Part shown: positions 2,966-27,300 of the stretch, piece after piece | Position numbering within the stretch: the stretch's first letter is position 1 | Layout: the number at the start of each line of letters is the position of its first letter | From: Acanthosoma haemorrhoidale | Taxonomy: Eukaryota; Arthropoda; Insecta; Hemiptera; Acanthosomatidae | DNA: 64,000 bases | Assembly: GCA_930367205.1 (NCBI GenBank) | Contig: OV884013.1 | Location: 119,761,827 to 119,825,826 of the forward strand | Direction: 5' to 3' | Program-made: the position numbers and the translations under genes | The notes under the pieces: generated by a model | The model's input: the letters and a program-made list of their open reading frames with translations, nothing else | What the model was told of the DNA's origin: nothing | The model's database searches: none

Positions 2966-5921
2966 GAACGTAACTATTCCGGAAGCAGCTACATAGCTGA
3001 GCCAGAGGTGTACATGCTTCATGTCGAGTCGAGCATCAAGTTCAGATACGCTCATACGAGGGTCACTTCCAGGGTGGCCAACCCTGCCAACACCTCCCAG
3101 GAGATCGTCTTTATGATGCTTCTACCCGAGACTGCTTTTATAACTTCTTTTGTCATGTAAGCAGCGTATTGTATCTAGTGCATTGATCCTTATAATAAGA
3201 AATATCCACGAATAAACAGATAATTAGGGTTATATTATAAGAATGTACTGTCTGGAATAATCATCTGTGCAGCTTGATATTAAGATAACTTGAGATGACC
3301 GACTAACTATTTAAAAATTTTGAATTTAAAATATTTTAAGTATAAGGCGATCTTTGGCCAGAGGGTGTAAGACATAAATATATTAGATTTATAGCTATGT
3401 GTTATAATAAATTATAATGTGCTTAGAAGTGGGAAGATTGAAAGGAAAGGCTCTACATTAAAACAATCACGGGTATCGTGATGTAAAATCAGTTTTTTAC
3501 TGAAATTTTAAATGTGCATTCCAAAACCACCCTGGATTATACTGATAATTAATTCTGTCAATTTTTAAAGATAATTAAAATTACAAATATAAAAATTAAG
3601 CGATTGTATCTTTGCCCTCCCTTTCTATTTGACTACTAAAACCAAAACATATACGGCATAATTAAATACAAATTTGACTAAAAGCATGATGCTAAGTTAC
3701 AGATAAATTATATTATTTTTACAATATTGCATATCAAACATAAATAACCCCAGCATAATTTTAACCAATACTATTGCAAGAGTAGATTTATTCAAAGTTA
3801 GCGCTGATTAACATAAATTAGAGGAATAGATGAGTTGGATATATAAATTACCTATTTTTAAAGCTTAAAACATTTTTAAGAAAATATTTATCACAATACT
3901 TCTGATCTTTTCAATTAATGACGCTTCTTGGAAATTCACTTGATTAAACTGTATAAGTCACTTTTCCTTTCAACCCTTTGATAAAACTCTTTTAATTTAT
4001 AAATAATATTTATTCAGGGACGGATGTAATGCATTTATTTTGAAAATAATTCCTCAAAGCTTTTACTTTTATTTTCAATATATGGAACCATAGAACTCAA
4101 TACAGAAAATCAAGTTTAAATCACTAAGACATATCACCTAGTATAAACTTATAATATATAGGTATTTATTAAAATATCAAACACCAAGGTATGTTTGTAA
4201 TTACTTGAAACATTTTTACTTAGTTGATACAAATTTAAGTAGAACTAAAACTTTTATAATAAAATCATTTATCTGAAATTGTAATGAAAATGTTTACATA
4301 AAATTTGTTACGTACTTAACGTTTTTTTACACCATCATTCTGTAGTATATATGATAATTTATTGACATTTTTTTTTCCTTTTCTTAGGGAAGTGGAAGGG
4401 AAACAGTATCGAGCATACGTGCGTGAGAAAGAAGCAGCGAAGAAGGAATATGACGAAGCAGTTTCTTCAGGTTTGGCAGCAGCTCACGTCCAAGCTAGGT
4501 AAGTCTACATTCTGCAAATCCGATGCCTTCATGATGTAGGGAGTATGACTTCTGACAAAATTTACTCAGTGTTGGATAAGGGAGGTAACTTATAGGACAT
4601 GCCTGGCGGTGTTGAATACAGATGTTACGAGCTCTTTGTAATTGGCGAAAATTAGTTTTTCAAAAAAAAAAAAGCTTGATAACTCTCCCAAAATATTTTT
4701 TATTATTGATACTACATCAACAGTTGACATTTCGCCTATTCAGGCTTCAATCCAGGCAAAAACATAAATTTATATACATAGAAAATAATTATATACTGAA
4801 CACTCAACATAATAAATAATAAGTTTGGAAACAATCCAAAGAATAAAACAACACACCTGTGAATGATATTTTCTTTAAATGTACATAGTTGTAGAAGGAA
4901 TTGGTAATCTTCCTGGAAAAACAAAATACAATTTCTAAAATGTAATACATTGAAATGTTACCCTGTCAATACAAAACAATTTATGATACAAAACTATGAA
5001 AAACTTATTCAAATGATTTAGAATGGAAAACATTTTTTGTATACTTCATAAGAAAAACAACTTTAATTTGTTGGAGGAGGTTATATAAACATGGGCTGAA
5101 ATACTATCCACTAGCCCCCAAAAATTAGACAACAAAGTACACTTATCACAAATATCATAATTAGAAAAAATCAGAAATCACTAAAAAAATGTCTACAAAT
5201 ATATTTTATAAAAAAAATATACATATTAAAAAAAGTAGGTTATAGTGACTATACTATATTTGCTTGTTTGACTGCTTGTCTTCAGCATATGATAGCTGTT
5301 TTTCTAAATATTACTACTACTAAAAATATGTGGTGGGCAGCCAACCATCTTCCTGGCATCCTCTAACCATCTTACACTAGGACCTGATAGTAGTAATAAT
5401 AGTTTCTTCTTATGTTAACCATAAATAAATTTTGATGAAATTCTATCATCTTTCTTTCAACAACCAAAGCGGATATCTGAACCAATAATCCACACATATC
5501 TAAATTCATGGCTAACTATAAACACACTGAAGATAGTAGCGACTTATAAAGTTTATAACTTATAAACAAGCTAAAATGTTGTATATTTTTTATAAGAATT
5601 TTGGTGGGGATATATTCGGGTGAATATGGTAAGGGCTTACAATGCCCCTGTTCATACCACCAAGCAGTGTAATCTAATTATAAAGTATAGTTTTAAATTA
5701 GCAGGTATTATTTTATTGCATGTATCTCTTACATTGTTGCATTAAGTATAAAGCTGCAACTAATTTGCTGATATTTTTTTAGTGCTAGGAACTCTAACAG
5801 ATTCATGATCTCCGTGAACGTGGAGAGGAGCTCTAAGGCTCTCTTTGTCCTCACCTATGAAGAACTACTCACTAGAACTCTCGGGCTGTACCATCACGTC
5901 ATTAACCTCAACCCTGGCCAG
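2966..5921 (+). CDS. Exons 1-3 of the ITIH-like gene: VIT domain
   Basis: Exons 2966-3156, 4388-4498 and 5783-5921 encode the VIT (vault protein / inter-alpha-trypsin) fold. Typical strings are the start EPEVYMLHVESSIKFRYAHT, the middle FVMEVEGKQYRAYVREKE, then KKEYDEAVSSGLAAAHVQA and the strand RFMISVNVERSSKALFVLTY. These match the family pattern of a Met-x-Ile/Val-x-Gly turn followed by Lys-rich, Tyr-Asp-x-Ala-Val and a Gly-rich loop. Exon 1 begins in phase 0 after an acceptor TTTAAAG, so the upstream exon must end on a whole codon. Exons 4 and 5 (6773-6884, 8360-8511) carry the VIT-to-vWA connection. Confidence 0.92.
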
Positions 5922-8900
5922 GTTAGTAACTAGGGCTAAACACTATTACCTACTCGAGACTAACAGGGGAGGATTATCATATACAAGGTAACAGCTATGG
6001 TGGGATCTCTTGAGTATATTCCACGATCGAAGTTATCTTTCTGATACTTGGAGAAATTGCCACCCCATATGGCTCCGATTATCAGAAACAGATCATTAGT
6101 ATCTGAGAGTACAGGAGTAATTGTATGTATTTCTTGAAATTATCATTGCAACTTAGTATTAAATTATGTCGAGACGACCTATTATTTCAGTAGGTTAAAT
6201 TTATAACATTTTATTAATAAAAAGATATTTGCCCCATATTGGTTATAGAGAGTCATGAGCTGTAAAAACCTAAGTTTATGGAATATAAAATATGCCTTAA
6301 TCATAATTGGTGAACAATTTTACATTGAAACAGCTACACTCATTTTTTTTTTTTACTTCTGTCTGAATCTAAAGCTATATAGTTTGTATAGACAGTTTGT
6401 GAACATTGTAATCCAGAACCTATATTACGATCTTCTGATAAATGTTAATTATTAAGATTAGATTAGTTTTACATAATTTCTATTGAACTAATAAATGTTA
6501 AACTATCGAATAACTTAAAACAGCTTTACTAAACTGTAATTTAAAATATAAATGGAGGCCAGAGTAACTGATTGTTAGCTATTCACATCTAAGAGAACTA
6601 TGTGATTCTCGCCAGCGAGATCTAGAATACATTTCGTAGTAACCGCATGGAATAAATTAAACATCCTTAGCTGTCTCGGACTGGGTTGTACACTGTACCT
6701 ATATAAATGTAATCATAGATTTCTTTTGGTTTGTAATAAATGCATATAATCGTAACATGATTTCAAATATAGGTTGTACGAGACTTACTTGTGGACGTAT
6801 TTATAGCTGAACCGACCAATATAATAGAGCTTCATGTTCCAAAAATCAGACCGTCGAATGAAGTTAACAATGAGCCCGAAGAAGGTACACATACTATTCT
6901 TTTTACTTGTATTATAAATAGTTCTGTTATATTATTACTATTTCATTATATTTATTACTGACTACAGTAATACAAATGGATGCAATTAAATTAGAGCTAA
7001 GAAAACAATTATAATTACTAGTGCAGAGATCCTCAAATTGAAAACCTCAGAGTAGGTTATAAGTATTTGAACATCACCATTTTGGAATAATGTCCAAGCA
7101 ATTCATTTTTGTATATTTTTTTTACTTATGAATAATAGTTTAAAAATCAAAAAATTTCTTTCATAATTCTAATGCTTTTGATTGTACAAAAAAAAAAAAA
7201 AATCTTTGAAATTGAGAACACAAGATTTATCTTTTGAAAGAGGTTGCAATCAAATTTGATTCTGAGTTCAAAGTTTTTATATTTGAAGAATAGTAAATAT
7301 AAATGGAATAAGAAGTATAAATGGAAAAATAGTAAATACAATAATATACATGATTAAATAATGTAATTAAATTTGGTCAGTTTTGAGACTAAGTGACTTA
7401 ATTACTATTTCTTAAGGCATCAAGTGTAAAATAATTTTGTTATCTATGAACGTGTTTACATGTTTTAAACCAGGAGTTTGCCGTAATATATCACATATTT
7501 CTACATCAAATTAATAAAAAGTAATAAAATTATTCACATAAGTTAATCTGTTACTTATAGCCGAGGAAGACAAATTTATCCTGATAATCTTCAATAACGA
7601 CCAATCCTTTATTTTTTTCCCCTTCTGCTTTATTACTAGCTAACACTTACAAATTAGTGTAATAAAACAATAATAATATATAAATATATATGAAAATTAA
7701 TTTTTAAAACTGTAAAGCGTTTTTTCAATCTTTAATTTGTATGAAATTTAAACAATAGCTGGGCCTAAAATCCATCATGTATTTTATTGTATCCAAATCT
7801 TTATCGCCTACTCACTATTGCATATATAAGTATTTATTGTTAACGGAGTGTAAAGATATTGAAATAATCTATGAGCATTTAAAAAAAAGTAAACTTGGTT
7901 ATAAACCATTAATTACACCTAGAGTAAATATATTACTCTAGTAATTAATTACATCTCACACTTGCCTTCAGTCCCATCTTTAATATCTACACTCTTCCAG
8001 TACCTTCTTTACTCTCAATGAGAGCTGTTTATTTTATCTTATTGTAGTATTTTATTTTACCCAAATATCATTATTATCCTCCTAAACTAAATGTATGTTT
8101 TTTTTATTTTAATTAAGGATACCAAGATAGAGAATATTATTCTTCAAAACAAAAAAAAAATATATAACCTCAATTAATAATAAATGTAAAGTAACATTAA
8201 GTTAGCTAGCTAGACGATTTCAAAATTCCACTTCTGATATTTGAAGGGGACTATGTCCCAGAATACAGATATCTTTCATTCATTCATATATTTTAAAATA
8301 ATTATTTTTTTAAATGTTATATTATGTACAATATACTAATCTATAATATTCCTTAACAGAAAACCGAATCGTTGAGATAAGAAGACCTAGCCCGCAGAAG
8401 GCCCACATCAGATACAAACCAAGCACCGAAGAACAGGCCAAGAATATTGGTGGCCAATTGATTGTCAAATATGATGTGCAAAGATCGTCAGAACAAGGAG
8501 GCCAAATATTAGTAAGTTAGACTTTGCTTCGTAAGTATAATTCATAAAATATCAAATCAAAATATCTTATATTCTTTTAGTAATTCTTCAAGATCAATAA
8601 ATTAGTAATGCGAAGAGTTGACTTTTTATTTATTTCATTGAAGCACTACAAATCCGGCCTTAAGCATTGAAAATATTTGTTCTATAAATTTGTTTTTATT
8701 AGTCCATTGTTTCATTCTTGTATATTCACAAAAGCATTTTTTAAAACAATGCAATAATTTGATCTTATTCTTCACAGTACAGACCGTAATCAACAACTTG
8801 TAAGTATTATAAAATCGAGGATATTTTCAGTCAAAACTCAATAAATACAAGTTGACCACATTTTCTGTTGGCATTATCTATATGTGAAGTGAAATTCCTC

Positions 8901-11900
8901 ATCTTAAAAAAAACAAAAACAGACAAATCAAATAAATATAAATTGCCCTCCCTTCAACTTCGACTCAAGTTTTAGCCAAATATTGAATACAATAAGTTAT
9001 AATAATGCCTGTAGAAAAAGTTAAGCTCTATGTTCAAATGAAAGAATAGAAGCCTTGTATAACTGGAGGAACATAACGGTCAATTAAAAACACTTAATTA
9101 AATAGTTATAATGTTTTTAATTGATTGAAATTATCAACAATGATAAATGAAAGTATTTTACATTATTTTTAGGTAAATGATGGATATTTTGTCCATTTCT
9201 TTTCGCCGGAAGGACTGCCACCTTTAAGAAAGTTAGCTGTATTTGTTTTGGATTTATCTGGTTCAATGGAGGGCCGCAAAGTTGAACAATTGAAGACAGC
9301 GATGGGAACCATCCTTGATGATCTTGGACCACGGGATCATTTCAATATCATCGATTTCTCTTATTCAGTGACGGTAATAATACACTAAAAATATTAATTG
9401 ACATTCTTTAGATTGGACTTATGGGTCCAACTAATGTGTTAACCGAAGGATCAATAGAATTGAAACTTTCATTGGACTTTTTTTTTATTTTTTATACAAC
9501 CGCTAGGCTCATTGATGCCTGCATATATACGATCATTTTCTTGATTTTGGTTTTATATTCCATTACAGTGCTTGGAAAGAAATTTATAATTAAAAATATT
9601 ACTGCCGGATTGTGGAATGGTATAATTATAGAACAGCTTTAATCTTGTTTATGTGTATAAATAGAAAATAAATAATTAAATAAGCAAGCATTTTAGAATA
9701 CTAGTATGTAATACCAAAAATACATAACTCACTCCAATAAGTAACTAAACAATAATAAATTTTCAAAGACTGAAGCTATGACACTTATTATTAAAAAAAA
9801 AATTATTCACATGATTCAAAAATTTAATTAAAAAAATGGCACTGTAGCATAGTTCTGCTGTAGACGTTGAGCTACACACATAAATAAATGTTCGTTTTTT
9901 TTAATATTAGTAAGTTTTGAAATTTTCGCTACAACTTATAATACGAGGTGTTATAGGGATAGTTATGAGCGTTATATTTCATGATTTTGACATCATTCTT
10001 CTTTCCAATGGTACGTATGTCATTAATGAAACTATTTTAGATATTGTGCTTTAAGTATTTAAAATTTGTCTACTTTTCAAAACATTTCAAACTCTTTACA
10101 TAATTTACATTACCCTGGGAAAGGTTTATTATTAAGGATAAACATTTGCACAATTATTGTTTTCAGGTACACAACTTGGACTCTGCGACAGGAAGCGTAG
10201 TCCTACCCCCTGATACATCGATTGGAAAGAGAACAGAGATCCCGCCTCCGTACCCAACTAGCAAGGAGTACATCGGGAAAGCCAAACAGGTCATAAGCAA
10301 GATGTCTTCAGGCGGCGGTAAGCAGGGCGCAGCATATGTTTAACATTAGTCCTAACTCATGTAAGAGACTTATTGAGATAGTCGTAGGCATGTTCACCAT
10401 AAGTCTTCTCCTATCTTGTTCGAGAGTTTTAATAGTTTTATCATTGACAGGTACTAATATTTATGATGCCTTGAAGAACGCGCTTGTTGTCGCTCAGTCC
10501 GGAGTGGGCAGGATAAAGAAAGAAGAAAGCAACACTGATACAGATACTTTGGAGCCAATTGTCATCTTCCTCACTGATGGAGATCCCACCGTAGGGATCA
10601 CGAAGCACAACAAAATACTCACCATGGTCAAGGAATATAACAATCCAAGGTCATTAAATAACTTACAATACAATCTTCAATTGAATTAATCAAGGCAATG
10701 CGTTACAGAATTAATAGTAGTTAGATAGATGAATAATTTTATTTACAAAATAATGTCTTGAGAAACAAAGTTAGAACCAACAAAACACAATGACTATAGA
10801 CTGGAATGTCTGATTATTTTAACGATAATATAATAGTTTGATATATCTTCCATCTTCCATTTAAACAAAAGAAAAAAAGAAAAAATAATGATGACATTAT
10901 AATAAACAGAAAATACAAAAAAAATCCTGATTCTTATTTGTTTAAAAAAAAAATATATATATCTCACAAAACAAAATATTAGGGGGACCAGAAATGTCGT
11001 TTTTTTTTACATTGAATTCAAAAAGATAAATTTTTAACAAGTTTTTGTTTTTGATCAATGATGTAATCACCCTCGTTATCAGCAACCTTTTGCCGTCTAG
11101 TGTGCAAATTTTTAATGCCTGATCGATCAAAATCAATTGGTTTTTGAGCAAAATATCTGCAGATGGTATTTTGGACATCAACCCAAATTTTGAAATTTTT
11201 TGCCACTTAGAAAATGTAGCGATCGGAATAAATGGAAATCCGATTTTGGGCGAGTATGGTGGTTGAGGCAATACCTCCCACCACAATTCATAAATTTTTT
11301 CCAGGGTTCTTGCAGAAAAAATAGGCGCAGTGGGGTCTTGCATTATTGTGTTGCAGAATATCGCCTTTTTTTATTGACAATCGCTGGGCAATTTTCAATT
11401 AAAGATTGATTTACTCGATCTAATTGTTCACTGTAAAGATCTGCATTCACAGTTTTTCCAGGTATCAGCGATGAACGACCCCGCAAATACTCCACCAAAC
11501 ACACAAAAGCACCTTTTTGGAGTGTAAACCTGGCTTAGCTGTACTTCGTGCCGATTCATGCGGAGAGAGATTTTCGGATTATCATAGAGGACCCATTTTT
11601 CATCTCCAGCCTCACCCGCCATACTCGCCCGATATTGCGGCATTGGATATCCATTAATTCTGATCGCTAAAAATTTGAAAATTTGGATGATGTCAAAATG
11701 CCATCTCCAGATATTTTGCTCAAAAACCAATTGATTTTGATCGGTCAGGCATTGAAAATTTGCACACTAGATGGCAAAAGGTTTCTGATAATGAGGGTGA
11801 TTATAGCATTGATTAAAAACAGAAACTTGTTAAAAAATTATCTGTTTGAATTTAGTGTAAAAAAAAAAACGACATTACTTTCCAGTCCCCCTATTATATA

Positions 11901-14900
11901 ATAAAACTTTAAAACATGAAAACTCAGCTGTCATAATTGCAATGATCCTATGCCCATAATGATTCTTCAAGAATCTCTGTATAATTAGTAAATAAATACA
12001 GACACACATTATATTGAATGCCATTAATTTTTCTATTACATATATTAATGTAATAGTAAAAGCATATAGAAATACGGGTAGTTGCAGCTTATTGTTATTT
12101 TTTTTTTATAAAACAATTAAGGCAATAAATGTACATTCACCCAAAAACATTTAAATTTTTCAAAATATATACAAACATATTAATAATTATTAGTTGTGTT
12201 CTGTAGTCCTTATGGTTTAGTAATTGATAGTCAAAGAAAAAATATAGCGTCAAAGTCGAGATTCGAACCCCAGAGTTCATGAATTCTCGCTATCTGATCT
12301 TCCATCTGATTATCAGGGATCAAAGGGCTTCCTGGAGATCAGGAGTTCTTGAGTTTAAATATTGGTCCTGACAATATTTTTTTTGTTAAACTGATAATCA
12401 TACAAACATCCTTTCAGACATGTGTTATTAAATTCTAAATTGTTTGCATTATCAAATTGAATTCTCATATTAAATAACCACTTATAAGTATTTATATTTC
12501 AAATATAAATAAAAATATTAAAGATTATATTTATTTATTATGTTACATAATTAATAAATTACTATGATTACAGGTGTTCAATATTTTCACTTGGCTTTGG
12601 TAATGGTGCCGACATGAGATTTCTGAGGAAACTTTCCCTTAGTAATGCGGGCTTTGCACGAAGCATTTACGAAGCATCTGATGCCGCACTTCAACTTAGC
12701 AATTTTTACAAAGAAGTTGCGTCTCCACTATTGTCCAATGTTTCTTTCACCTATCTTCCAGGACAGGTAACCACTTTCTTTCTATGTGTGCGAGGGAGGT
12801 CTCTTGAGTGTATTTATTTGTGAATGAATGATTGAAGTTGGAACTGTGAACACGGCTTTTCACTTTCGTTTATAATGATAGTAATACAATAAGGTATATA
12901 TTAATTATTTTTTTGTGCTTTTCAGTAAATAATAACTATGTTTTATTGTGTAGGTATTGCCAGGTTCCTTAACCAAAGATAATTTTCCGTCATTATTTCT
13001 TGGTTCAGAGCTCGTTGTTGCCGGCCGATTGACTGATTCTAGTCAAGTCAAAACAACAGTCGAAGGAACTTCAGTAAATGGAACTACCATGTTCCAAGCA
13101 GAGGTAATGATTAATTTAAAATATGCAATCACTTTCAAGTTTCCCAAATTTCAAATAAATAATTATCCCGGCTCAATTCTACTAATTCCTCTTAGGCAGT
13201 TTTTCACGTAGCACTAGACTATCTCATTCATATTACAATGATATCTCGTCTTTGCTGAAATTTGACTTGCTTATTTATAAGGAGTAAAAGGGCATAAAGT
13301 AAAAGGGGATATAAAAAATTCATAAAGTTTATTTAATTATGTTTCATTTAATATGATATCAAGTTCCATATGGTTTCAGGGCATAATTGTTTCTACTTCA
13401 AATATTTCATATTAACATAAATGACTTTAGGAATACATATATAATTTAAATATTAGTTACCTAAAATAATCAATAACTCCCCTATTGCAGGGTAGCTCAG
13501 TTGGTAGTGCTCCCGACCAGATATTGAGGAGGTCCCATGTTCGAATTGTGATCTTGCCAATCATTTTTTCTTTGGCTGTTAATTATTAATAGTCGGAACA
13601 GAAAGGATCTATTATATTAAGATCCTATAAATTATTGACGTTCAAGTCATTTCTTATTTGTCATAGGCGATGAGGGACATCCCTGATGATATTTCAACTA
13701 TTGAATACACCGAAACAAATAAAACAAGCAGTGAACTCGAAGAAGAGCTTAAAGGCGATGGGAAAAAGAAAAAGAAGAAGAAGATTTTAATGACCAGCCT
13801 TGAGAGAGTATGGGCTTATCTGAGCATACAGCAGTACGCCGACAAGTTGGAAGCGGTCGAAGGAAACCAAGAAGCTGAAAAGGAAATTCGCAAACAAGCC
13901 GTTAACTTAGCTTTAAAGGTAAATATAAATATTATGATAATTTTTCTGACAGATGAAATATATTAACTTGAAAAAAAAAATTGGCTTAAAATCCTTTACC
14001 GTTTTTATCTATTCTACATCATTTCAAACAAAGTATTTATCTTTCAGTAACACTTAAAATCATGTTTTTTCCCCATAACAAGAAAGAATGAGCATTTATT
14101 CAAAACATTGCAGAATAAAGAAGGATTTTAAGCAAAAAATCTTTTCTATTTTTAAACAAAAAGTTTTAAGCCATCCTAACAAATGATGAAATGCATCAAT
14201 GATAATGATTGATTTACTTTTTTTTTCAGTACAAATTTGTAACTCCTTTTACATCACTTGTTGTCGTAAAACCAAATAAAACCGAGGAATTAAATAATGA
14301 TAAAATGAAACCTGGTAAGTTAATATTTTTCTTTCATTATATTTACTTACAAGATTAGTTAACATTTATTTTCATTTTTTTAATGTTAAAGTGTTTAAAA
14401 TATTTCATTCACTTTTACTTGTTTGTATATTTCTTTTTTAATTTTTCAACCCAGTCTACCCCATTTTCAGGGTTTGATTTTTTTTTTTTCAAAACCAGAA
14501 AGTTTTCACCCTTGTCTCTGTCTTGTACCCTATCAATTGAAAATTACAAAGTCTTAATTAATAATATGTGTTGAGAGTTGTAATAATAATGTGAGAATCA
14601 TGTATCCAAATGAATACCAAGCTTGAACGTGTTAACACTTATTAACTACTTACTAGCTATTTAGCTACTAGTTATTATTTTGATATGGAACAGCTTTACC
14701 TGAGACAAGAGGGGGGGGGGAGTGTCCATTCAAAGAAGAAAAAATGGCAAAATTAAACTTTATAATAGCAATAATTATTGGATAACTAACATCAAAAGAA
14801 AACATTACTGGCAAGATCAGGACCTAGTCAATATGCAGTTGTGGGCTTAATCAAATGGAAGTCCTGCTCTCTTGGTAGTAATGTTTTCTTTGGGTGTCAA

Positions 14901-17900
14901 TTATTAATTATTATAAATAATAGAGGGACCAATATCACAATAATAAAATTTCTCTTTGTTCAATTTTATAGTTTGATCATTATAAAAAAATATTATTGGG
15001 CCTTCCCTGTAGCCAAGTGGTCAGCATACCTCGGAGACCCGGTTTCGATTCATAGCTCTCCTTAGGATTTTTAGTGGTTCGAGCCTGACCTGGGTTCACT
15101 CAGCCTCCTGAGGATAAATGAGTAGCTACTTGAATAAAACATTATCCTATCCACTTTAAAAAACATAAATTATGGATGATTTAATTGAAATATAAATTAA
15201 GCACCAACCACACCAGTATCTCAGCCCAACCTAGCATCAACAGCCACAACCTTCGGTTGGCCCTACCTCCCTACCATGGATTTGTTTTTAAAATACTGAC
15301 AATTTTAAATAATTATCATAGACCATATCTTTTCTCTTTAATCAATAATTATTAAAATTCACACCAGTAGTATTTCATTCCTTAACTAATAATTATTTAT
15401 GAGTAATCAATTCCTTAATAACAAATGTTTTACTTTTTGTCCCCTAGGTGATCAGTCACTTAAAAATAAGGTAGCATATTTACAAGGAAGCATACATGGT
15501 TTTACAAGCGCTTATGGCCGTAAGTTCAATAAAACTATATTCTCCTGATGTTCACATTTAAGTCAAATTGTACCAAATCTTTTTATAAGTTAGTTTATTT
15601 AAAGCTAATTAATTTCCGGCAATTAAATCTTAACATATCTGGAGTGTTTGGTAAACTAAAAAATATTAGATCAAAATACTACTAGTCTTGTAACCCTTAA
15701 AATATTGAACATTTAATCAATTTGGTTATTAATAACAATAATTGTTAGATAATCATTAAATTAAAGTTTTATTTAAAAAAAATTAGAATCATGAAAATGT
15801 ATATAGTGAAAATTTTGCATTTATGACTTATACTATTTTTGCCAAACACTCCAGATATGTAAATAAAGGCTCTGACACGATTTTGTGCTTGTTTCGCTGA
15901 TTCGAAATATGAAAGAATATGGTTCTAATACGAAAATGAAAAGTTGATTTACTTTCTTTCACCTGTAGACTTCGTATTGAAAAGCAGGTATACTAATCTG
16001 TACAGCTTTTAACAGCTATAATGTGCAAGATTATGACTTTGCTCATTATACAAAGTAAATTACCTATAATTAAATTGTTAGTTGTAAAAAGTAATTTCTT
16101 TAGGTTTCTACGGCCAATCTTGTTAAGTTTATAGTCCTCCCGATGCTATCCTGCTAAGACAATTGTCATGAAGCACAAGGTGACTGAAATAGTCTGTTGA
16201 AAACTTAAAAAAAAAAAATATGTATATAAGATACTGAATTATTGGTTCCTTTATGTAATAAAATGACATAAACAAACTCTAATAATCATACTGTTTAAGA
16301 AAAAGTTATGTTTACAAATAATTAAAAACAAACAAACACTAAATACTAATATAATAAATGAATTTAATTGCTCAGGGGTTTTTAGATAGTAGTAATAGTG
16401 TTTTTGTAATTACTATTAATAATCAATAGCCGAACAAAAAATATATTATTTTAGTAGTACGATTTAATAATAGTGGGATTTGTACTACAACTAGCTTCTA
16501 CTTAATGTAACATTAACAAATTATAAAAGTATTAACTTAATAATGCTACAGTTTATGCTGTTTCCACCGATTACTTCTCGTAATGTATACATACTAACTA
16601 AAACTGTTCCGTGAAACAATTCCGCTGTAAACTGGGCGATTAATAACATGTGCCTAGACCAAACACTTTCTCCCACGTCAAATGCACTTAACGTGTTCTT
16701 ATTTCCAGTGGTAATTCTACAGGTTTGTCCTGATTACACTGAGGGCCTTGACTTCCCTGCTTTCCCGTGCAGGGTCTCAGCACTTCGATTCGCTGACATA
16801 ATTATGAAATATTTGATTTCTTTTGTAATTCACTACCCTTAATAATAACAAATAATTACTTTTATGATATTTATTTTATTTGTTATTTATTCTCTCGGGT
16901 TACAAATGTTTGTATTTTGAACAGATTTAACATCTAATACCTGACATTGTTGGTGTGCTTTGTATCAGATGGTAGATGTGTTCAACTTCTCTCCTACTAA
17001 TTATATTTGAAACACTAATTACTATAATTATTACTTGAGATATTAACAAAAATAAAAAATGAATCAACCTTAAGATTTAAATTACTATTTTAGACTAAAA
17101 TTTCACATGTTATAGATAGAAACTAAAATATATCATCATATATAATGTTATATACCTCTCTATGATTTATTACAAGAAGTTTACAAAGATTTGCATTTAT
17201 ATTATACTACATTATGCACCAGAGTAGGTAATTTACATATGTGGTTGGCAATCGCTACAATGTTTAAAACTTTTATGTTATTTAATTAAATAAGCATATT
17301 TCAATTAATAATTATTGTTGTTATAGCCTCACGAGTTGATGTAATGGCAACCCAGCCAATAGTTCCTAATTATTCGACAACGACAATCGACAGAATCGAT
17401 GCAGGTATACAACTATATTTACTCAATAAGAATTTTTCACTTTGTATTTATAAGTAATGCGTAAAATTTATAGATTTAAGAAACTAACATGCACTAAAAT
17501 TTTAGGAGAAGAGGGCAGTGAGGAAAATGTGTATCCCGATATAAGCGTAGACGATTATGCGATGTATTCCCCGAGTAGATTATATCTAGAAGATATTATA
17601 TGGTTGAAAGATGTTTATTCTTGGGAAAACAATACCATTTCTATCGAGAAAAACAATTCATCTGAAACATATCACTTCCTAAACACAACGGTAAGCTTCG
17701 ATATGGAATGTCTCATTAAACATATCACTTCCTAAACACAACGGTACGTTTCGATATGGAATGTCTCATTAAACATATCACTTCCTAAACACAACGGTAA
17801 GCTTCGATATGGAATGTCTCATTAAACATATCACTTCCTAAACTCAACGGTACGCTTCGATATGGAATGTCTCATTAAACATATCACTTCCTAAACACAA

Positions 17901-20133
17901 CGGTAAGCTTCGATATGGAATGTCTCATTAAACATATCACTTCCTAAACACAACGGTAAGCTTCGATATGGAATGTCTCATTAAACATATCACTTCCTAA
18001 ACACAACGGTAAGCTTCGATGTTTGGATTTGTCTGATGTTTTCTACAGTTCAAGCGCATATTTCCAGTTTTAATAACTGTTTTCATAAATGCGGTTTGCT
18101 TTCAAGAGCGAGGTTACAGTTTGTATTTAGCTGATACTAGAGCTTAAATCTGATCACAAAACTATCCTTTCGCCTAAATCCTACAATTCCAACTCCTTAT
18201 ACAGTTACGAGCATTTTTTGCAATCTATTAAAAAAGTGTTGGTAGCCTCACAGTCCTAAAAGGCAAAATATTGAATGAATAAAAAAATGTAATTTATTCA
18301 AGAATCCCAAAAAATAGAATAAAAATGTACAAATGATAGCCTAAGGAATTTAAATAAACATAGAACAGGATAACATAAAATAGAAAGGAATAACCCAATA
18401 CAGTAATGTAAAAACAAAATTAAAGCACTGTTATAGAACAAATAATTTATTTAACTAATGGTTTTTAAGGATTTATCAGTTTGTTTTTAATTCTTTTTTC
18501 TGAATCTGAGGAAGTCATAAATGAAGTTTTTTTCCCGCAAGTTTTAGTGAGTAGTTCATTTACTATCATTTTATAAAAACTCTTGGGCACCAGGCTTGTT
18601 CCTGCCTCACATTCTGACCACCCGTAGATATTTTTTTCTTTACATCCTTTAATTTGTCAACAAACATATATATTATTCAAATATTTATTATTTATATATA
18701 TTTTAATTATATATTTTTTCATATAATTTATTACTTTATATTTAAATTTTACGTTATCTCAAGGTTCTGTTAATAAAAATTAGGAAACTTCTGGAAAAGG
18801 AATAATTGTTTATTACACATATGTTCATTAAAATTAATATACAAATTAAATATGTACGTAATAAAAGAATACTAATAAATCTGACATTAAAATGGTACCT
18901 TATAATTATTCGTGGCTGGCCAGCGTTTCTTGGTTGACTCTTCGTGGTGCGTTCTTTGTTCTAAACTGAAGCGTGTGGTCTCATACGTCTCGTTGTCGGC
19001 TTGGCTGGTGTCAAGCGTGGCCCTCTTCCGGTAGCGTCTCCTCCTCGTGTAGGTCAAAATAGAATGAGTGCCCGCTTTCGTCCTCTGGCGGATCATATAT
19101 CTGCATCTCTCCGCTGCCTTACTGATCTTTAAACTGCATTTAATGCCAGTTGTTTCGGATATTTATACTTTGCTTAATTTTGAAGTTTATATAATAAATG
19201 TTTGTATTAGTTATGATATTATTTTTATTATAAATATTACTAATTAATATGACGACAATAAAACCGTTCATACTTTCATAGGCATGAACCACGGATCGTT
19301 ATTACGTTCTTCAACGCTCACTAATTCCGAGTTTAATTCAAAAACACAATTAAAAATAATAACATTAAAATATCATAACAATATGCATGTATTTACAACT
19401 ATAGAAATATAAATAAAATTTAATTTAATTCAGTTCATTACTTATTTTATTTTTTGTTCCGATAGACCGGCAAAGAAGAACCAGGAGGGATATGTGTACT
19501 AAATGATGGCATTGAAGGTCTTTGCAGGCACGTCACTGATTGTATATTGCCGCAGTTTGCTTCCTCGTTGCCGGAGTATGTTTCTAATTACTTCTGCGTG
19601 ATAGAGAAAAGGTAAGATTGAATAAGAGGTATATAATGTAACATATTATCATCAATGAATGATCGGGATTTGTTTTTAAATTTACAAGGAGCTCTAATGA
19701 ATTTAAACTTTTCATTCATGAACTTGATTTTTTATTATTCTATTATAAATTTTTTCCCCATCAGAAGGATGATAATAAAATAAAGTTTGTCATATTTTTT
19801 TTTTGGGGGGGGGGAGGAATTCAGAGCATTTAGAATATTTAAATTTATTTGTTCTGTTCTTTGTTTAAGTTCTTTTTAAAATGTTTATTTGTTCTGACCA
19901 TCTGTTGGATTTTTAAAATTTCAATTTGTAAAGACTAAAACACATACTACAATTTTTGTTCTTACGGTACCATGTCTCAGAACAATAAATAAACTATTCT
20001 ATATTTCAGTTATGCTGGTGCCTGCTGCCCGGAGCTGACAGACTCATCTGCAGACAGCTTTTACTCGACAACAGAGATACTGGACGCTGACTACGGAACA
20101 ACACCTTTAATCACAACGCCTGCAGCTACCTGA
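2966..20133 (+). CDS. ITIH-like heavy chain (VIT-vWA) with C-terminal clip domain, 5' incomplete
   Basis: Seventeen exons join in frame to 846 residues plus TGA: 2966-3156, 4388-4498, 5783-5921, 6773-6884, 8360-8511, 9173-9373, 10167-10317, 10451-10649, 12574-12766, 12954-13103, 13667-13918, 14230-14314, 15448-15519, 17327-17404, 17506-17690, 19466-19611, 20010-20133. Every intron has GT/AG borders and every phase matches; the weakest donor is GTCATT at 10650. Domain order: VIT about 12-150, vWA about 255-440, ITIH-type C-terminal strands to about 650, an acidic linker, then a clip domain at 767-812. ITIH proteins are secreted; in vertebrates they bind hyaluronan and are matrix or plasma proteins. 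The insect role is unclear, probably haemolymph or extracellular matrix. No signal peptide precedes the first exon found, so one or more 5' exons are missing, most likely beyond position 1. I saw no AATAAA in the first few hundred bases after the stop. Confidence 0.9.
3157..9172. other. Introns 1-5 of the ITIH-like gene
   Basis: The introns at 3157-4387, 4499-5782, 5922-6772, 6885-8359 and 8512-9172 are AT-rich. I see no further gene, repeat array or clear transposon in them. Confidence 0.5.
9173..12766 (+). CDS. Exons 6-9 of the ITIH-like gene: vWA domain with complete MIDAS
   Basis: Exons 9173-9373, 10167-10317, 10451-10649 and 12574-12766 encode a von Willebrand A domain. The metal-ion-dependent adhesion site is complete: DLSGS at about residue 262, the Thr of GTNIYDAL at about 354 and the Asp of FLTDGD at about 395. 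The last exon gives SIFSLGFG, then ARSIYEASDAALQLSNFYKE, a signature of ITIH proteins just after vWA. The domain should therefore still bind a divalent cation and a ligand, unlike degenerate vWA copies. An unused frame reads through the short intron 10318-10450, but the spliced form fits the family better. Confidence 0.92.
10982..11891 (-). mobile_element. Fold-back mariner derivative, TA-flanked
   Basis: A 910-bp element bounded by TA (10980-10981 and 11892-11893), with ends GGGGGACCAGAAATG and the complement of GGGGGACTGGAAAGT. Read on the minus strand, the middle and lower part carry a mariner transposase from GDEKWVLYDNP through to the C-terminus, with frameshifts and stops. The upper 280 bases or so are an inverted, diverged copy of the lower end, including the C-terminal coding part (CSDRNK, SDFHLF region excluded). 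The N-terminal half has thus been replaced by a second, inverted 3' end. It cannot encode transposase. Confidence 0.8.
12230..12385 (-). mobile_element. tRNA-like SINE(s)
   Basis: The minus strand has TAATCAGATGG and GGGGTTCGAATCTCG spaced as A and B boxes; a second, weaker B-box-like GAGTTTAAATATTGG lies on the plus strand at about 12350. Confidence 0.4.
12954..17690 (+). CDS. Exons 10-15 of the ITIH-like gene: C-terminal strands and acidic linker
   Basis: Exons 12954-13103 and 13667-13918 give LFLGSELVVAGRL and RVWAYLSIQQYADKL, and 14230-14314 gives YKFVTPFTSLVVVKP, all close to ITIH hallmarks after vWA. Exon 11 contains seven consecutive lysines (about residue 566) encoded by an A/G-rich run. 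Exons 15448-15519, 17327-17404 and 17506-17690 encode a less conserved, acidic, Ser/Thr/Asn-rich linker with several N-x-S/T sites. I do not see the DPH processing site or the ITI_HC_C domain that vertebrate heavy chains carry. The last exon ends LNTT in phase 0, inside the first unit of a tandem repeat. Confidence 0.85.
13488..13610 (+). mobile_element. tRNA-like SINE
   Basis: GGTAGCTCAGTTGGTAGTGC (A box) and GTTCGAATTG (B box) are about 45 bases apart. The tail TTAATTATTAATAGTCGG resembles that of the copies at 20575 and 21048. The tRNA cloverleaf is not intact, so it is not a tRNA gene. Confidence 0.55.
14990..15140 (+). mobile_element. tRNA-derived SINE
   Basis: CTGTAGCCAAGTGGTCAGCA resembles an RNA polymerase III A box, and GGTTTCGATTC, about 40 bases on, a B box. 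A SINE-like body ending CTGAGGATAAATGAGTAGCT follows; a related tail in complement occurs near 41525. Confidence 0.55.
15520..17326. other. Intron 13 of the ITIH-like gene
   Basis: AT-rich, with a SINE-tail-like stretch near 16390-16445 (TTACTATTAATAATCAATAG). Nothing else recognised. Confidence 0.45.
17668..18020 (+). repeat. 53-bp tandem repeat carrying a splice donor, 6.6 copies
   Basis: Units begin at 17668, 17721, 17774, 17827, 17880, 17933 and 17986 (partial). Each holds the last 23 bases of exon 15 (ending CTAAACACAACG), a donor and 24 further intron bases. Donors read GTAAGC in units 1, 3, 5, 6 and 7, GTACGT in unit 2 and GTACGC in unit 4. Units differ at only a few positions, so the expansion is young. 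Only the donor of unit 1 keeps the reading frame open, because a TAA follows at 17733 in unit 2. Confidence 0.95.
18887..19136 (-). CDS. Candidate minus-strand exon nested in intron 15 of the ITIH-like gene
   Basis: A block much richer in G+C than its surroundings, open in two minus-strand frames. One frame, open from an acceptor-like AAATGCAG, gives a very basic stretch ending ATNNYKVPF and TAA. The other gives MQIYDPPEDESGHSFYFD and an acidic tail ending EEGHA and TGA. A minus-strand AATAAA lies near 18810, downstream of the stops. Which frame is used, if either, is undecided; it could be the last exon of a nested gene or a retrocopied tail. Confidence 0.3.
19466..20133 (+). CDS. Exons 16-17 of the ITIH-like gene: clip domain and stop
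   Basis: Exons 19466-19611 and 20010-20133 encode Cys767-x9-Cys777-x5-Cys783-x17-Cys801-x9-CysCys811-812, with strings ICVLNDGIEGLC, RHVTDC, YFCVIEK and YAGACCPE. This is the disulfide-knotted clip pattern of arthropod clip proteases, most like the CLIPD type. A Ser/Thr-rich tail ends LITTPAAT and TGA. Exon 16 enters in phase 0, matching exon 15, so the domain reads as part of the ITIH protein. No usable GT donor lies before the stop, so it cannot simply continue into the downstream protease. It could instead be a separate short gene whose start I did not see. Confidence 0.8.
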
Positions 20134-21146: not shown

Positions 21147-22312
21147 TGTCGATATCATCAAAACACCTATGCCAGGAGCTGGACAGTGCAGTTTACGATA
21201 GAGCCCTTTTTATATCTGATTCTCTGAACACTTTCTCTTGTACAAGATTAAAGATTGGTCATGCCAAGGCACCAAGGCAAATAAGTTTACTTGGGATGTT
21301 TGAATCTTCAAAATCCTTGCACGGCTTCAATCTATTGGTCAGATGGGACATCCATTACATCCCTACAATATCAAAACTTGTTATTACACAGAAGAAAAAT
21401 ATATTCTCTCTTTCTATTAAGCTTTTTTGAGTCACTGCATTGGAAGCTATTTAAGATTTAATGTTATGATTTTTTCCCGAGGCTGAAAATGGTAATACAA
21501 AAAAAAATTATACAATATTCCAGAAAATAGTCTTCAATGCTGCCAAAGGTTATTCAATAGTTTGTTTTTTTTGAGGGGGAGGATATGTTAGCTATTTACA
21601 TTTTTTAAATTTGTTTGAAAGGTGATTTTCAATCGAGTTGGCATAATAAATGAAATTAAGCCAAAAATGATGAGTAGCTTATTCTCATAGATAAAAACAT
21701 AAGAGTTTCTGCTAAAAACTATTAGTTACGGTACGTGATAATGTAATATTACTAATGTAATAATTATTAGCTACAGTACCAGGACCTCCTTCTCTCAACT
21801 ATTCCCATCGAGCACGAGACCTAGCCAACGACAAATTTCTTTAAATTTGCTCTGGGGAACCTCAAAAAAACAAAACAAAACTCTAAAAAAAAGGAATGAA
21901 TGCTTTCCTTTGGTTAGGTTGGTAGTTCTTGTTTAAAGTTCAAAAGGTTACAGTACCATACATTCTGATTCTATTCAAACACAGTTGTCAAGTAAGCAAA
22001 CTCTCTAGACAATTTCTCATCAACAGTGCAGCTTTCGAAGAGAGAAACCTGCCTTGGTTCAAATATTCTCCCTGGGGAAAAATCTTTGAGAGTATCAGAA
22101 ATGGATGTCCCATCTGACCAATAGATTGAAGCCGTGCAAGGATTTTGAAGATTCAAACATCCCAAGTAAACTTATTTGCCTTGGTGCCTTGGCATGACCA
22201 ATCTTTAATCTTGTACAAGAGAAAGTGTTCAGAGAATCAGATATAAAAAGGGCTCTATCGTAAACTGCACTATCCAGCTCCTGGCATAGGTGTTTTGATG
22301 ATATCGACAACA
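21147..22312. repeat. Inverted repeat with 208-bp arms
   Basis: 21147-21354 is nearly identical to the reverse complement of 22103-22312 (for example CAAAACACCTATGCCAGGAG against CTCCTGGCATAGGTGTTTTG), with about 750 bases between. The open frames in both arms are mirror images and not evidence for genes. Confidence 0.9.
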
Positions 22313-22930
22313 TGGGAAGATACTTTCAAGCTGTCAATAGAAGACTTGAAATAAATGACAGGCCCGGAGGTTGACACGGTGGAACAGCTCACCATAGGAA
22401 CTTACGCTGTTGAAAAGGTTGGAGAATTCGTCTATCTCCGTTCACAGGTTAACGTATTGGTTAGAATAATAATAATATTAGCAAACAGGAACTTATTTGG
22501 GCTGGGACATTCTTTATAAGTCGCCTTTTATGGTGGATAACAAAGCTTAAACTATAATAAAATCCTGACCCCACCCTTTTTTAATTTAAAGCTCTGAGAA
22601 AAGGATAATCTCAAAATCTATTGTGCGAAAACTCGTGAAAATATTTTAGATCTCTCAGTGGAAAGTAAAAGGAGAGGCTTTTTGAGAAGTCACCGGAGTG
22701 GCTGGCATGCGACAAAGGTTAGCGAATGGGATATTCCTAGGTCGGTGTTGGGTCAGCTCTTGGATGGAGTATTGTTGGAAGGCAGAGCTGTGTGGACAGT
22801 TTAGGGAATGATGGCAGAAATCTGTTTGAAGTGCACAAATGGATTGCAATTGCGCAAAACAGGAAAAATATGGTGAAAGCTGATAGGTGGAGGAGGACAT
22901 CAACAAGCGTTGATCATCTTTAATTTGTTA
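22090..22930 (+). mobile_element. Decayed non-LTR retrotransposon (RTE-like RT C-terminus)
   Basis: Plus-strand pieces read TVEQLTIGTYAVEKVGEFVY and ANRNLFGL, then further on WHATKVSEWDIPRSVLGQLL, similar in pattern to the end of RTE/craniofacial-protein-like RT ORFs (FEVV.. F.YLGS .. AANRA.FGL). Several stops and frameshifts. Confidence 0.5.
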
Positions 22931-23139: not shown

Positions 23140-23963
23140 GAGGGTGTCCCAGATTTAACGTAACATTTGAATTTGTCGCCATTTGTCGCCACAACTCTAA
23201 AAAAAAATTTTGACAGCTGACAGTTTAGAGTTAGTAAAAATGGAGCGTTGCACGATAGAACAACGTGTCTTTATTGTTGAACATTATCTCAAAAATAATG
23301 AAAGTTTGGCGGCCGCAGTTCGAAAACTTCATACAAAATATGGTCGGAATAGTGTTTTGACTTCATCAACTGTGAAGAGATTAATTGAAAAATTTAGGGA
23401 GACTGGATCAGTTGGAGACACTGAACACACTGGTCGTCCAAAAACAAGCCGTTCAAATGTCAATATCGAAGCAGTGCGTGAGAGTGTTGTTGAAAATCCA
23501 TAACACAGTTCTTTGTGCCGATATTGGATGATATTGATGTGGCCAATATGTGGTTTCAACAAGATGGTGCCACGTGCCATACAGCCCATGAAACAATTCA
23601 AATACTGCATGAGACATTTCCAGGTCGTGTACTCTCTCGTTTCGGTGATCAGAATTAGCCCCCTATATCGTGTGATTTAACACCTTTAGATCTCTTTTTA
23701 TGGGGTTATTTGAAGTCAAAGGGGTATGTCAACAAGCTCACATCCACCCGTGCATTAAAAGAGGATATTCAACCACATTTATGCCAAATGGTCATGGAAA
23801 ATTTTGACAAAAGAGTGCGTTTGTGCCAGCAAAGTCGTGGAGGCCATTTGCCCGATGTGTTATTCCATAAATAAGCCTATCCTATTTACTTTATAATTCA
23901 ATAAAAAAATAACAACAAAAATACAAAAACTGTCAAATCTTGCGTTAATTCTGGGACACCCTT
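23140..23963 (+). mobile_element. DDE transposon of the GGGTGTCCC family, copy 1
   Basis: An 824-bp element with ends GAGGGTGTCCC and complement AAGGGTGTCCC, flanked by TA. The ORF at 23210-23503 gives the N-terminal HTH ([35 protein letters not shown]). It is then joined out of frame to the C-terminal DDE part ([34 protein letters not shown]). The middle of the transposase is deleted. It sits just 280 bases upstream of the protease start codon. Confidence 0.85.
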
Positions 23964-24243: not shown

Positions 24244-24310
24244 ATGAAGTTTTCAGGACCTGTCTTCTGCACCCTCTGCCTCTTCGTCATCCGGGCCAGG
24301 TCTCAGGCAG
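24244..24310 (+). CDS. Exon 1 of the serine protease: signal peptide
   Basis: The ATG at 24244 sits in a good context (CTACCATGAAG) and opens a signal peptide: MKFSGPVF, a hydrophobic core CTLCLFVI, then RARSQA. The exon ends GCA G before donor GTCAGT. Exon 2 at 44081 begins with AT, which completes Asp, and continues SGNSISQ. The phase agreement and the need for a secretion signal support the join over 19.8 kb. The alternative is a lone fortuitous exon, with the true first exon elsewhere in the transposon-filled intron. Confidence 0.72.
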
Positions 24311-27300
24311 GTCAGTCGTTTATCCTTCGGTGATTGTGCTCAATATTCCACGCTCCGTCGTAGGTACACTCCACCTAAATTATCCGAGTCGAGAGTAGTC
24401 GGAGGTGTGCAGTGTAAACATTTAACCACTAACCGAGATTTACGAAACGTATTTACACTGAGAAAAAAAAAAGCGATCATAATTTTAGGTGAAAAACATA
24501 AATATTCCTTGTTGAAAACAATTTTTTTTCAAATCAGTATGTCTCGTCGAGTTTCTTGGGATAGTTTGACGAGGGACAGATAATATGTAGGAGGGTTGTG
24601 AGGGAAGAAACTGTGATCCACAGAATTCCTCAAAGTGACCGAGGGTCTCGTAAAGATGCAAAGATCTGCCCCATCATGATTTTTTTAATTTGTTTTATGA
24701 ACATTGTTCTATTATATATAAATTATGTTTTGTTTTTTTAAATACGCACAAGTAAAGGAACTGTTTCCAAAGACAGTCTATTTTTGGTCGGAGCGATTTT
24801 AAAAATCATTAAATCTAATTAGAAAAAAAAAAACTATATTTGTGACAGAAAATTTTCCATTTATATTGATGAACCGTTTTAGTCACTGAAATAACGTTTT
24901 AAATAAATTAAAAAAAATTATCTAAATTACCGACGGAAAGAAATAAGGGGAAACAAGAATTGTTTAAATACAGACTACAGACAGACAGAGTGGATCATCT
25001 TTAGACAGCTATGGTGGAACGTAAGGATGGGAGGCAATCGCCCCGGTACTTGTTTGAAAGTAGATCTTCTTCTTTCGGGTTCGCTAATCGAATAAGCAAT
25101 GCGTTTTTAATTCTTCTGTAATGAATCCATGGAGGTAGAAGAACCTACCTTTCGAAGTGCAGTTAATCAAGTTACTGACGCCCAAGATAAATTAAATAAT
25201 TGCGAAGTAAAAACACTTGACAGATTTAGTACCGTATATATATATTATTAATTAGTAATTATATTTTCTTGTGAAAATTGTTTCATTAACGAAATAGTTA
25301 AGTAAAGACTGACATTAATGAAGATTTAGCAAAGATTAAAATAAGTAAGATTACTCGTTCAATAATTATGACAGCATGTCATTCCCATGACCATTTGGCA
25401 TAAATGTGGTTGAATTTTGTCGATGCAGCGCTGAATTTCCTCTTTTAATGCACCGGTGGATGTGAGCTTGTTGACATACCCCTTTGACTTCAAATAACAC
25501 CATAAAAAGAAACCTAAAGCTGATAAATCACACGATCTAGGGGGCCAATTTTGATCACCAAAACGAGAGAGTACACGACCTGGAAACGTCTCATGCAGTA
25601 TTTGAATTGTTTCATGGGCTGTATGGCATGTGGCACCATCTTGTTGAAACCACATATTGGCCACATCAATATCATCCAATATCGGCACAAAGAACTGTGT
25701 TATGGATTTTCAACAACACTCTCACGCACTGCTACGATATTGGCATTTGAACAGCTTGTTTTTGGACGACCAGTGTGTTTAGTGCCTCCAACTGATCCAC
25801 TCTCCCTAAATTTTTCAATTAATCTCTTCACAGTTGATGAAGTCAAAACACTATTCCGACCATATTTTGTATGAAATTTTCGAACTGTGGCTGCCAAACT
25901 TTCATTATTTTTGAGATAATGTTCAACAATAAAGACACGTTGTTCTATCGTGTAACGCTCCATTTTTACTAGCCCTAAACTGTCAGCTGTCAAATTGTTT
26001 TTTTTTTAGGGTGTTCAGCACTTTACTGCACAAATGGTGGCAAGTTCAAATCTTGCGTTAATTCTGGGACACCCTATATATTAAAAAAAAAAAATTGCAA
26101 TCTAACTTATAATTTCGTTTAATTAAAACATTGAAACAATGAAACAAATATGACTAATGTGTGTGAGCAGCCTGTGATATATGACCCTGATGACGTAGGA
26201 TCAGTCGGATTCGGCAAAGATCAGGAGGTCGGAGGTTATCCCCTCAGAGGACCTCGACTCAAGGATACTTGTGTTCCAGGTCTCGGCACACGGGAGTAGC
26301 TACCGGTTTTCTCAAGGTCTGGCTGTTGCAGCTCATCCTTAAATAATCACAATTTGGATAATTGCATAATTATCTACAGGGTTTCTCTACTGTTGCAGCA
26401 TATGGCAGTTTTGCGGCATCCGGCGATTGTGTAATAGAGTCGGCTACAATAAAGCACAATACACTGTTGCACTAGCTAGTCGGTCACCATGGATCAGCTA
26501 CCTCGTCATTTTCCGTATAAGGTACAGGAGACTCCTAAACGGGTCACAGGCCCACAATAAACCACCCTAAACGCTTAAATACACTCTAATAATAAAAACA
26601 GCTGTCAATATAACGGCAATGTTTAAGACTGAATGCGTAATTTTTTCCTTCCAAAAGGAAAAAAGTCCGCTACCTACTAGTTACACAGTAGGAACGCAGC
26701 AAAACTCACTAGCCAACAACCTAGTATATTTGGTGATTAAAATGGACAGACACCTCCATTTTAGTAACCATTTTACGAAGAAGTTGAAGCAAACTCGCAC
26801 GAAGTCTTATCGGCTTACGCATTTATTCACTTCCCCCAATCTATCACTGCGTCTCAAGCTATTGATCTGCAAGAGTGTACTCAGGCCTACTCTGCTGTAT
26901 GGTGTACCACTTTTTCGTCATCTGACGTATACGACAGCTCGGCGACTCCAACAATTCCAAAACGGTATACTGATGAAAGTGGTCAGGCATACTTCATTCG
27001 AGCAGCGGAGCAACAGTGAGCTTCACAAGATCTTTGAGCTGCCTACGGTGGATGAATTCATCCAACGTAGACATATCAAATTTTTCGACTCCCTTCAGTA
27101 CTTGACAAACCCGGTGTTTAACACTATAACCCCCGCTCCGTTCCCCTATCGATGGCAGGACGCTGTCGAGGCAGGAACGCTTTAGTCTTAGGTTCTAGTT
27201 TTAGGTTTAGTTTGTAAGTTTCCCACATTGTAATCTGAAGGTGAGCCCCATCACCTAGTTGTACCCAGGACTTACCTTCAAATAGAATATTGTTATTGTA

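Follow-up and report, generated by a model that had tools for sequence, protein, structure and literature searches.

Gene structure of the ITIH-like locus

The stretch analysed here, a window of 64,000 nucleotides from the shield bug Acanthosoma haemorrhoidale (contig OV884013.1, positions 119,761,827 to 119,825,826), carries a gene whose product is related to the inter-alpha-trypsin inhibitor heavy chains (ITIH) of human blood and ends in a six-cysteine clip module. The gene was assembled as 17 exons on the + strand with GT/AG splice sites, which form a single open frame of 846 residues. The features of this gene are as follows:

2966..20133, + strand: ITIH-like gene, with the order VIT, vWA, disordered linker, Trp/beta-hairpin, clip (exon chain, Pfam, Halyomorpha halys protein P0001)
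2966..3156, + strand: earliest exon found, start of the VIT domain (splice sites and frame; tblastn with P0001 residues 39-95, 88% identity)
17506..17690, + strand: exon for the end of the linker and most of the Trp/beta-hairpin preceding the clip (exon chain, P0001 comparison, AlphaFold2 confidence)
19466..19611, + strand: clip exon 1, Cys1-Cys4 (exon chain, P0001 comparison)
20010..20133, + strand: clip exon 2, adjacent Cys5-Cys6, short Ser/Thr-rich tail and stop TGA at 20131-20133 (exon chain, P0001 comparison)

The original prediction that the clip exons continue the ITIH-like frame up to a stop was borne out, as the 17 exons, once spliced, can be read through in that frame, whereas both other frames contain stops. 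Clip exon 1 (tccgatag/ACCGGC...GAAAAG/gtaaga) and clip exon 2 (tttcag/TTATGC...ACC TGA) both join the chain in frame. Annotated proteins of H. halys (P0001, 873 aa) and Nezara viridula (P0002, 863 aa) are 87% identical to the window product over 99% of its length. The two proposed junctions were recovered by comparison of protein models, in which P0001 carries both residue for residue: ...HFLNTT/TGKEEP... at 17690/19466 and ...CVIEK/SYAGACC... at 19611/20010. A third homologue, P0003 (878 aa, 76% identity to the window product), is encoded on three contigs, none longer than 2,944 bases; since the window gene spans more than 17 kb, these contigs are most simply taken to be cDNA. The window yielded no 5' exon(s) for a signal peptide, and residues 1-38 of P0001 have no match in it.

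The C-terminal clip module

The clip domain of the window protein, CVLNDGIEGLCRHVTDCILPQFASSLPEYVSNYFCVIEKSYAGACC, is encoded by the last two exons (first Cys codon 19493-19495, last 20026-20028) and is followed by the Ser/Thr-rich tail. Its cysteines are spaced C-x9-C-x5-C-x17-C-x9-CC over 46 residues. In clip domains the cysteines pair as 1-5, 2-4 and 3-6. The part of the literature consulted on this family gives five residues between Cys2 and Cys3 and 30-70 residues overall as marks of a CLIP domain (PMC1761132). Judged by its sequence, the window module agrees with these marks, having six cysteines, adjacent Cys5 and Cys6, a five-residue Cys2-Cys3 gap and a length of 46. The six cysteines are invariant in 38 of 38 aligned slices, the homologues among these having been selected by that pattern, and the Cys2-Cys3 gap is five residues in all 204 clip-bearing homologues, although the search pattern allowed 4-7. 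When 41 C-terminal modules are aligned, a Trp upstream of the clip is invariant along with the six cysteines, and the conserved unit is therefore the Trp/beta-hairpin plus the clip; in the AlphaFold2 model of P0001 the hairpin (residues 751-780) has a block-mean predicted local distance difference test score (pLDDT) of 91-93. The module is very probably a clip domain that shares common descent with CLIP.

Distribution of the architecture among insects

Homologues were collected in three lists, each holding the best 120 matches: one for the window protein (120 rows), one for a protein of the beetle Nicrophorus (117 new) and one for the VIT-vWA region of a protein of the clam Tegillarca, used as an outgroup control (102 new). 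The resulting 339 proteins were split by hand on the names in the tables into 247 hexapod or unnamed and 92 non-hexapod proteins; the latter, mostly molluscs and chordates plus unplaceable rows, all came from the Tegillarca list except P0030 and P0215.

The strict clip pattern was present in 104 of the 120 proteins of the window-protein list and in none of the six-frame open reading frames (ORFs) of the unspliced window. With a loose Cys1-Cys2 spacing it was found in 107 of these 120, and in 204 of the 237 proteins of the window-protein and Nicrophorus lists together. Because it occurs once in each of these 204, ends no more than 60 residues before the C-terminus in 201 of them (exceptions P0038, P0043 and P0121) and keeps a constant Cys2-Cys3 gap, while its strict form is absent from the unspliced ORFs, the pattern exceeds chance. 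Over all lists the loose pattern separated 211 of 247 hexapod or unnamed proteins from 0 of 92 non-hexapod ones. A VIT-vWA-clip order, which had been suggested as something to look for in related insects, was thereby found in named species of ten orders: Hemiptera, Thysanoptera, Psocodea, Blattodea, Phasmatodea, Orthoptera, Coleoptera, Lepidoptera, Trichoptera and Siphonaptera. The order of three clip-bearing species was looked up, and the remaining species were placed by general taxonomy. No row named as a crustacean, chelicerate, dipteran or hymenopteran occurs among the best 120 matches of each list.

Among the hexapod or unnamed proteins that lack the pattern are gene models breaking off within the clip (P0026, P0218, P0337), fused gene models, short fragments and long isoforms from weevils. 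Long clip-less ITIH forms of 1176-1270 aa (P0131-P0133, P0135, P0136, P0199, P0200, P0202, P0204) come from Sitophilus, Rhynchophorus and one further source, and in one of the weevil forms, P0136, VIT occurs in two stretches. Sitophilus also has a form with the clip, P0173, listed on a contig of the same length. The model of the springtail Orchesella (P0320, from the Tegillarca list) ends in the linker, before the position of the clip.

Age and conservation

The VIT-vWA cores of 67 proteins, with the clip columns excluded, were placed in a maximum-likelihood tree by a quick search with midpoint rooting and no bootstrap. Two groups of 30 and 37 proteins were separated with a Shimodaira-Hasegawa-like approximate likelihood ratio support of 100, and both hold Polyneoptera (cockroach, stick insect, locust, katydid) and Hemiptera. 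A single duplication that preceded the split between these lineages, in a protein already bearing the clip, would explain this most simply. Since only clip-bearing proteins entered the tree, it dates the clip without giving a count of losses. We regard it as almost certain that VIT-vWA-clip is an old, insect-wide architecture.

Identity between the window protein and that of H. halys is 93.5% in the clip, 93.8% in the Trp/hairpin, 89.5% in the core, 75.3% in the linker and 73.5% in the tail. Against P0003 the core reaches 83.9%, the clip 73.9%, the Trp/hairpin 62.0%, the disordered linker 50.6% and the tail 34.3%.

A proposed exchange of the ITIH tail

In vertebrate ITIHs the C-terminal part forms an ester bond to chondroitin sulphate or hyaluronan. 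The DPHF site is absent from the window protein and was found in 0 of 247 hexapod or unnamed proteins versus 53 of 92 non-hexapod ones. A cockroach protein, P0080, picked up by the loose expression D[PL]HF, was rejected as a carrier of the ester site, its match being DLHF within the vWA domain of a fused gene model. The domain PF06668 (ITI_HC_C) appears in the precomputed Pfam column, as read by eye, for 57 of the 120 rows of the Tegillarca list, none of them a named hexapod, and was found neither in the window protein (E up to 1) nor in P0001, P0057, P0031 or P0011. In the lists examined, DPHF and ITI_HC_C versus the clip form a clear module swap that sets the ITIHs of insects apart from their mollusc and chordate counterparts.

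Residues D293, S295, S297, T385 and D425 of the vWA domain, which we take to be its metal-site positions, are invariant in the 67 aligned proteins. Between the vWA domain and the hairpin, residues 664-747 of P0001 have a pLDDT under 50 and are predicted to be a disordered linker.

A proposed role and its alternatives

We propose that the window holds a stink-bug ITIH-like gene with a C-terminal clip, and that the clip swap ties its protein to the clip-protease network, a reading in which our confidence is evenly balanced. In an ancestor of the neopteran insects or earlier, the glycosaminoglycan-bonding C-terminal part would have been exchanged for a clip, so that the protein would be tied to the network of clip-domain serine proteases (clip-SPs), their inactive homologues (clip-SPHs) and prophenoloxidase instead of to glycosaminoglycan. 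The vWA core might bind a surface or a partner, the long linker might serve as a tether and could perhaps also offer a bait for proteases to cut, comparable to the cleavage of human ITIH4, and the clip might dock on clip-SPs, clip-SPHs or prophenoloxidase. Such docking would localise or restrain the proteolysis of melanisation, Toll signalling or clotting after injury. That docking in immune cascades is the main role is a possibility we place slightly short of an even chance. If it is true, an abundant, challenge-induced plasma protein without a protease domain would be a non-protease player in these cascades.

The domain assignment itself has to be weighed against several profile results. The search of the spliced protein that had been proposed for VIT, VWA and CLIP returned the first two (6.6e-28 and 9.9e-14), whereas Pfam called no C-terminal domain, CLIP included, and the tail scanned alone gave just a sub-threshold Peptidase_S10 match (0.015). 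Neither were CLIP domains seen by eye in the precomputed Pfam domains of the window-protein or Nicrophorus lists (120 rows each), and the clip modules stayed below the curated cut-off of PF12032, which matched 13 of 38 slices at E up to 10, not including the window slice, and gave 13.8 bits for Tribolium castaneum P0184 against a cut-off of 20. The best profile E-value of 0.095, a low fold Z and the missing Pfam call in the window protein would all suit a convergent disulphide knot that caps the C-terminus, which we nevertheless hold to be improbable. With phmmer, the window clip alone gave two matches in the PDB, both irrelevant, and the full-length fold searches were uninformative on the clip, their lists being filled by the core. 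An exchange within this lineage, in which the clip was captured from the neighbouring protease gene or donated to it, had also been suggested. A serine protease gene does lie downstream on the same strand (TAAHC at 48442, GDSGG at 53897), and, as had been stated, it appears to have no clip, none being found in a limited scan of + strand ORFs of at least 25 codons over 24-56 kb. However, the clip predates this neighbourhood by far, because the same C-terminal domain occurs in ten orders and in each of the two main groups of the gene tree, and it is as conserved as the remaining gene (identities to H. halys given above); the clip-less neighbour is thus no evidence of donation, and we give such an exchange practically no weight.

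Two other functions were considered for a true clip. The protein may chiefly be an ITIH4-like inhibitor, in which cascade proteases cut the linker, the cut protein remains on the protease and the clip is the targeting part. The predicted disordered linker, the mechanism of human ITIH4, an Arg in every parsed linker (68 of 68) and the SR sites kept in the window protein, P0001, P0002 and P0003 are consistent with this; on the other side, parsing failed for 39 of the 107 clip-bearing proteins of the window-protein list, an Arg is expected by chance in a linker of median 113 residues, and the SR sites were compared only in these four proteins. We consider it rather unlikely as the main role, and slightly less likely still that the protein is a structural or reproductive component of the extracellular matrix or egg, with a clip for self-assembly and no immune role. 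The latter is favoured by the results described for Nilaparvata lugens in the part of the report consulted, where RNA interference against ITIH4 lowers survival, egg production and hatching and expression is highest in fat body (PMC8951764), whereas lipopolysaccharide challenge induces ITIH in Tribolium and the protein is abundant in silkworm serum. Between these alternatives, docking of the clip in immune cascades remains the reading we prefer.

Other features of the window

Two further features are listed below:

17665..18020, + strand: 53-bp minisatellite, 6.7 copies, 97% matches (repeat search, frame reading)
About 47065-54055, + strand: neighbouring serine protease gene (motifs as given above)

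The minisatellite, which starts in the last bases of the exon preceding the clip, repeats the end of that exon along with its GT splice donor. The first donor alone keeps the frame open into the clip, and the read-through frame stops at 17733-17735; judged from these frames, splicing from a later donor would yield a truncated ITIH lacking the clip. A signal-peptide-like ATG near 24244 may be the start of the protease gene, which would imply very long introns. Two inverted copies of a putative mariner-type element, judged by eye from its motifs, were noticed at 23200-23880 (+) and 25359-26005 (-), and a 342-aa ORF on the - strand (51393-52421), within a protease intron, resembles a further one. 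A long inverted repeat seen by eye at about 21160-21340 and 22080-22330 perhaps marks the ends of a DNA transposon.

Comparison with known systems

NlITIH4 of Nilaparvata lugens is an insect ITIH4 of 907 aa with a signal peptide, VIT and vWA (PMC8951764). Compared by description, it resembles the window protein in these parts and probably belongs to the same family, but the word 'clip' occurs 0 times in the main text of that report. Within the passages retrieved from open-licence PMC literature, clip domains feature as modules at the N-terminus of serine proteases or protease homologues, one paper speaks of a 'C-terminal clip domain' with reference to Spaetzle, and no account of a clip on ITIH was found, PROSITE, UniProt and subscription journals lying outside this scope. 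Because NlITIH4 is described without a clip, this literature is silent and the precomputed Pfam domains of the window-protein and Nicrophorus lists show no CLIP, we rate VIT-vWA-clip, within the literature searched, as a new architecture that combines two known families; the order that had been thought unfamiliar is real. Standard domain annotation overlooks the clip on insect ITIH. It is conceivable, though we would not call it probable, both that the clip was missed so far because Pfam is blind to it and that its exchange for the tail made insect ITIH a dedicated regulator or scaffold of clip-protease cascades, a counterpart of the control of MASP proteases by human ITIH4.

The clip lies N-terminal in clip-domain serine proteases and homologues such as PAP-2, Grass and PPAF-II and C-terminal here, and the window protein has no S1 protease/trypsin domain by Pfam, so that its clip does not precede an S1-like domain as in members of that family. 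Vertebrate ITIH1-4, in turn, have the DPHF site and ITI_HC_C, whereas the insect protein has neither and carries a C-terminal clip instead.
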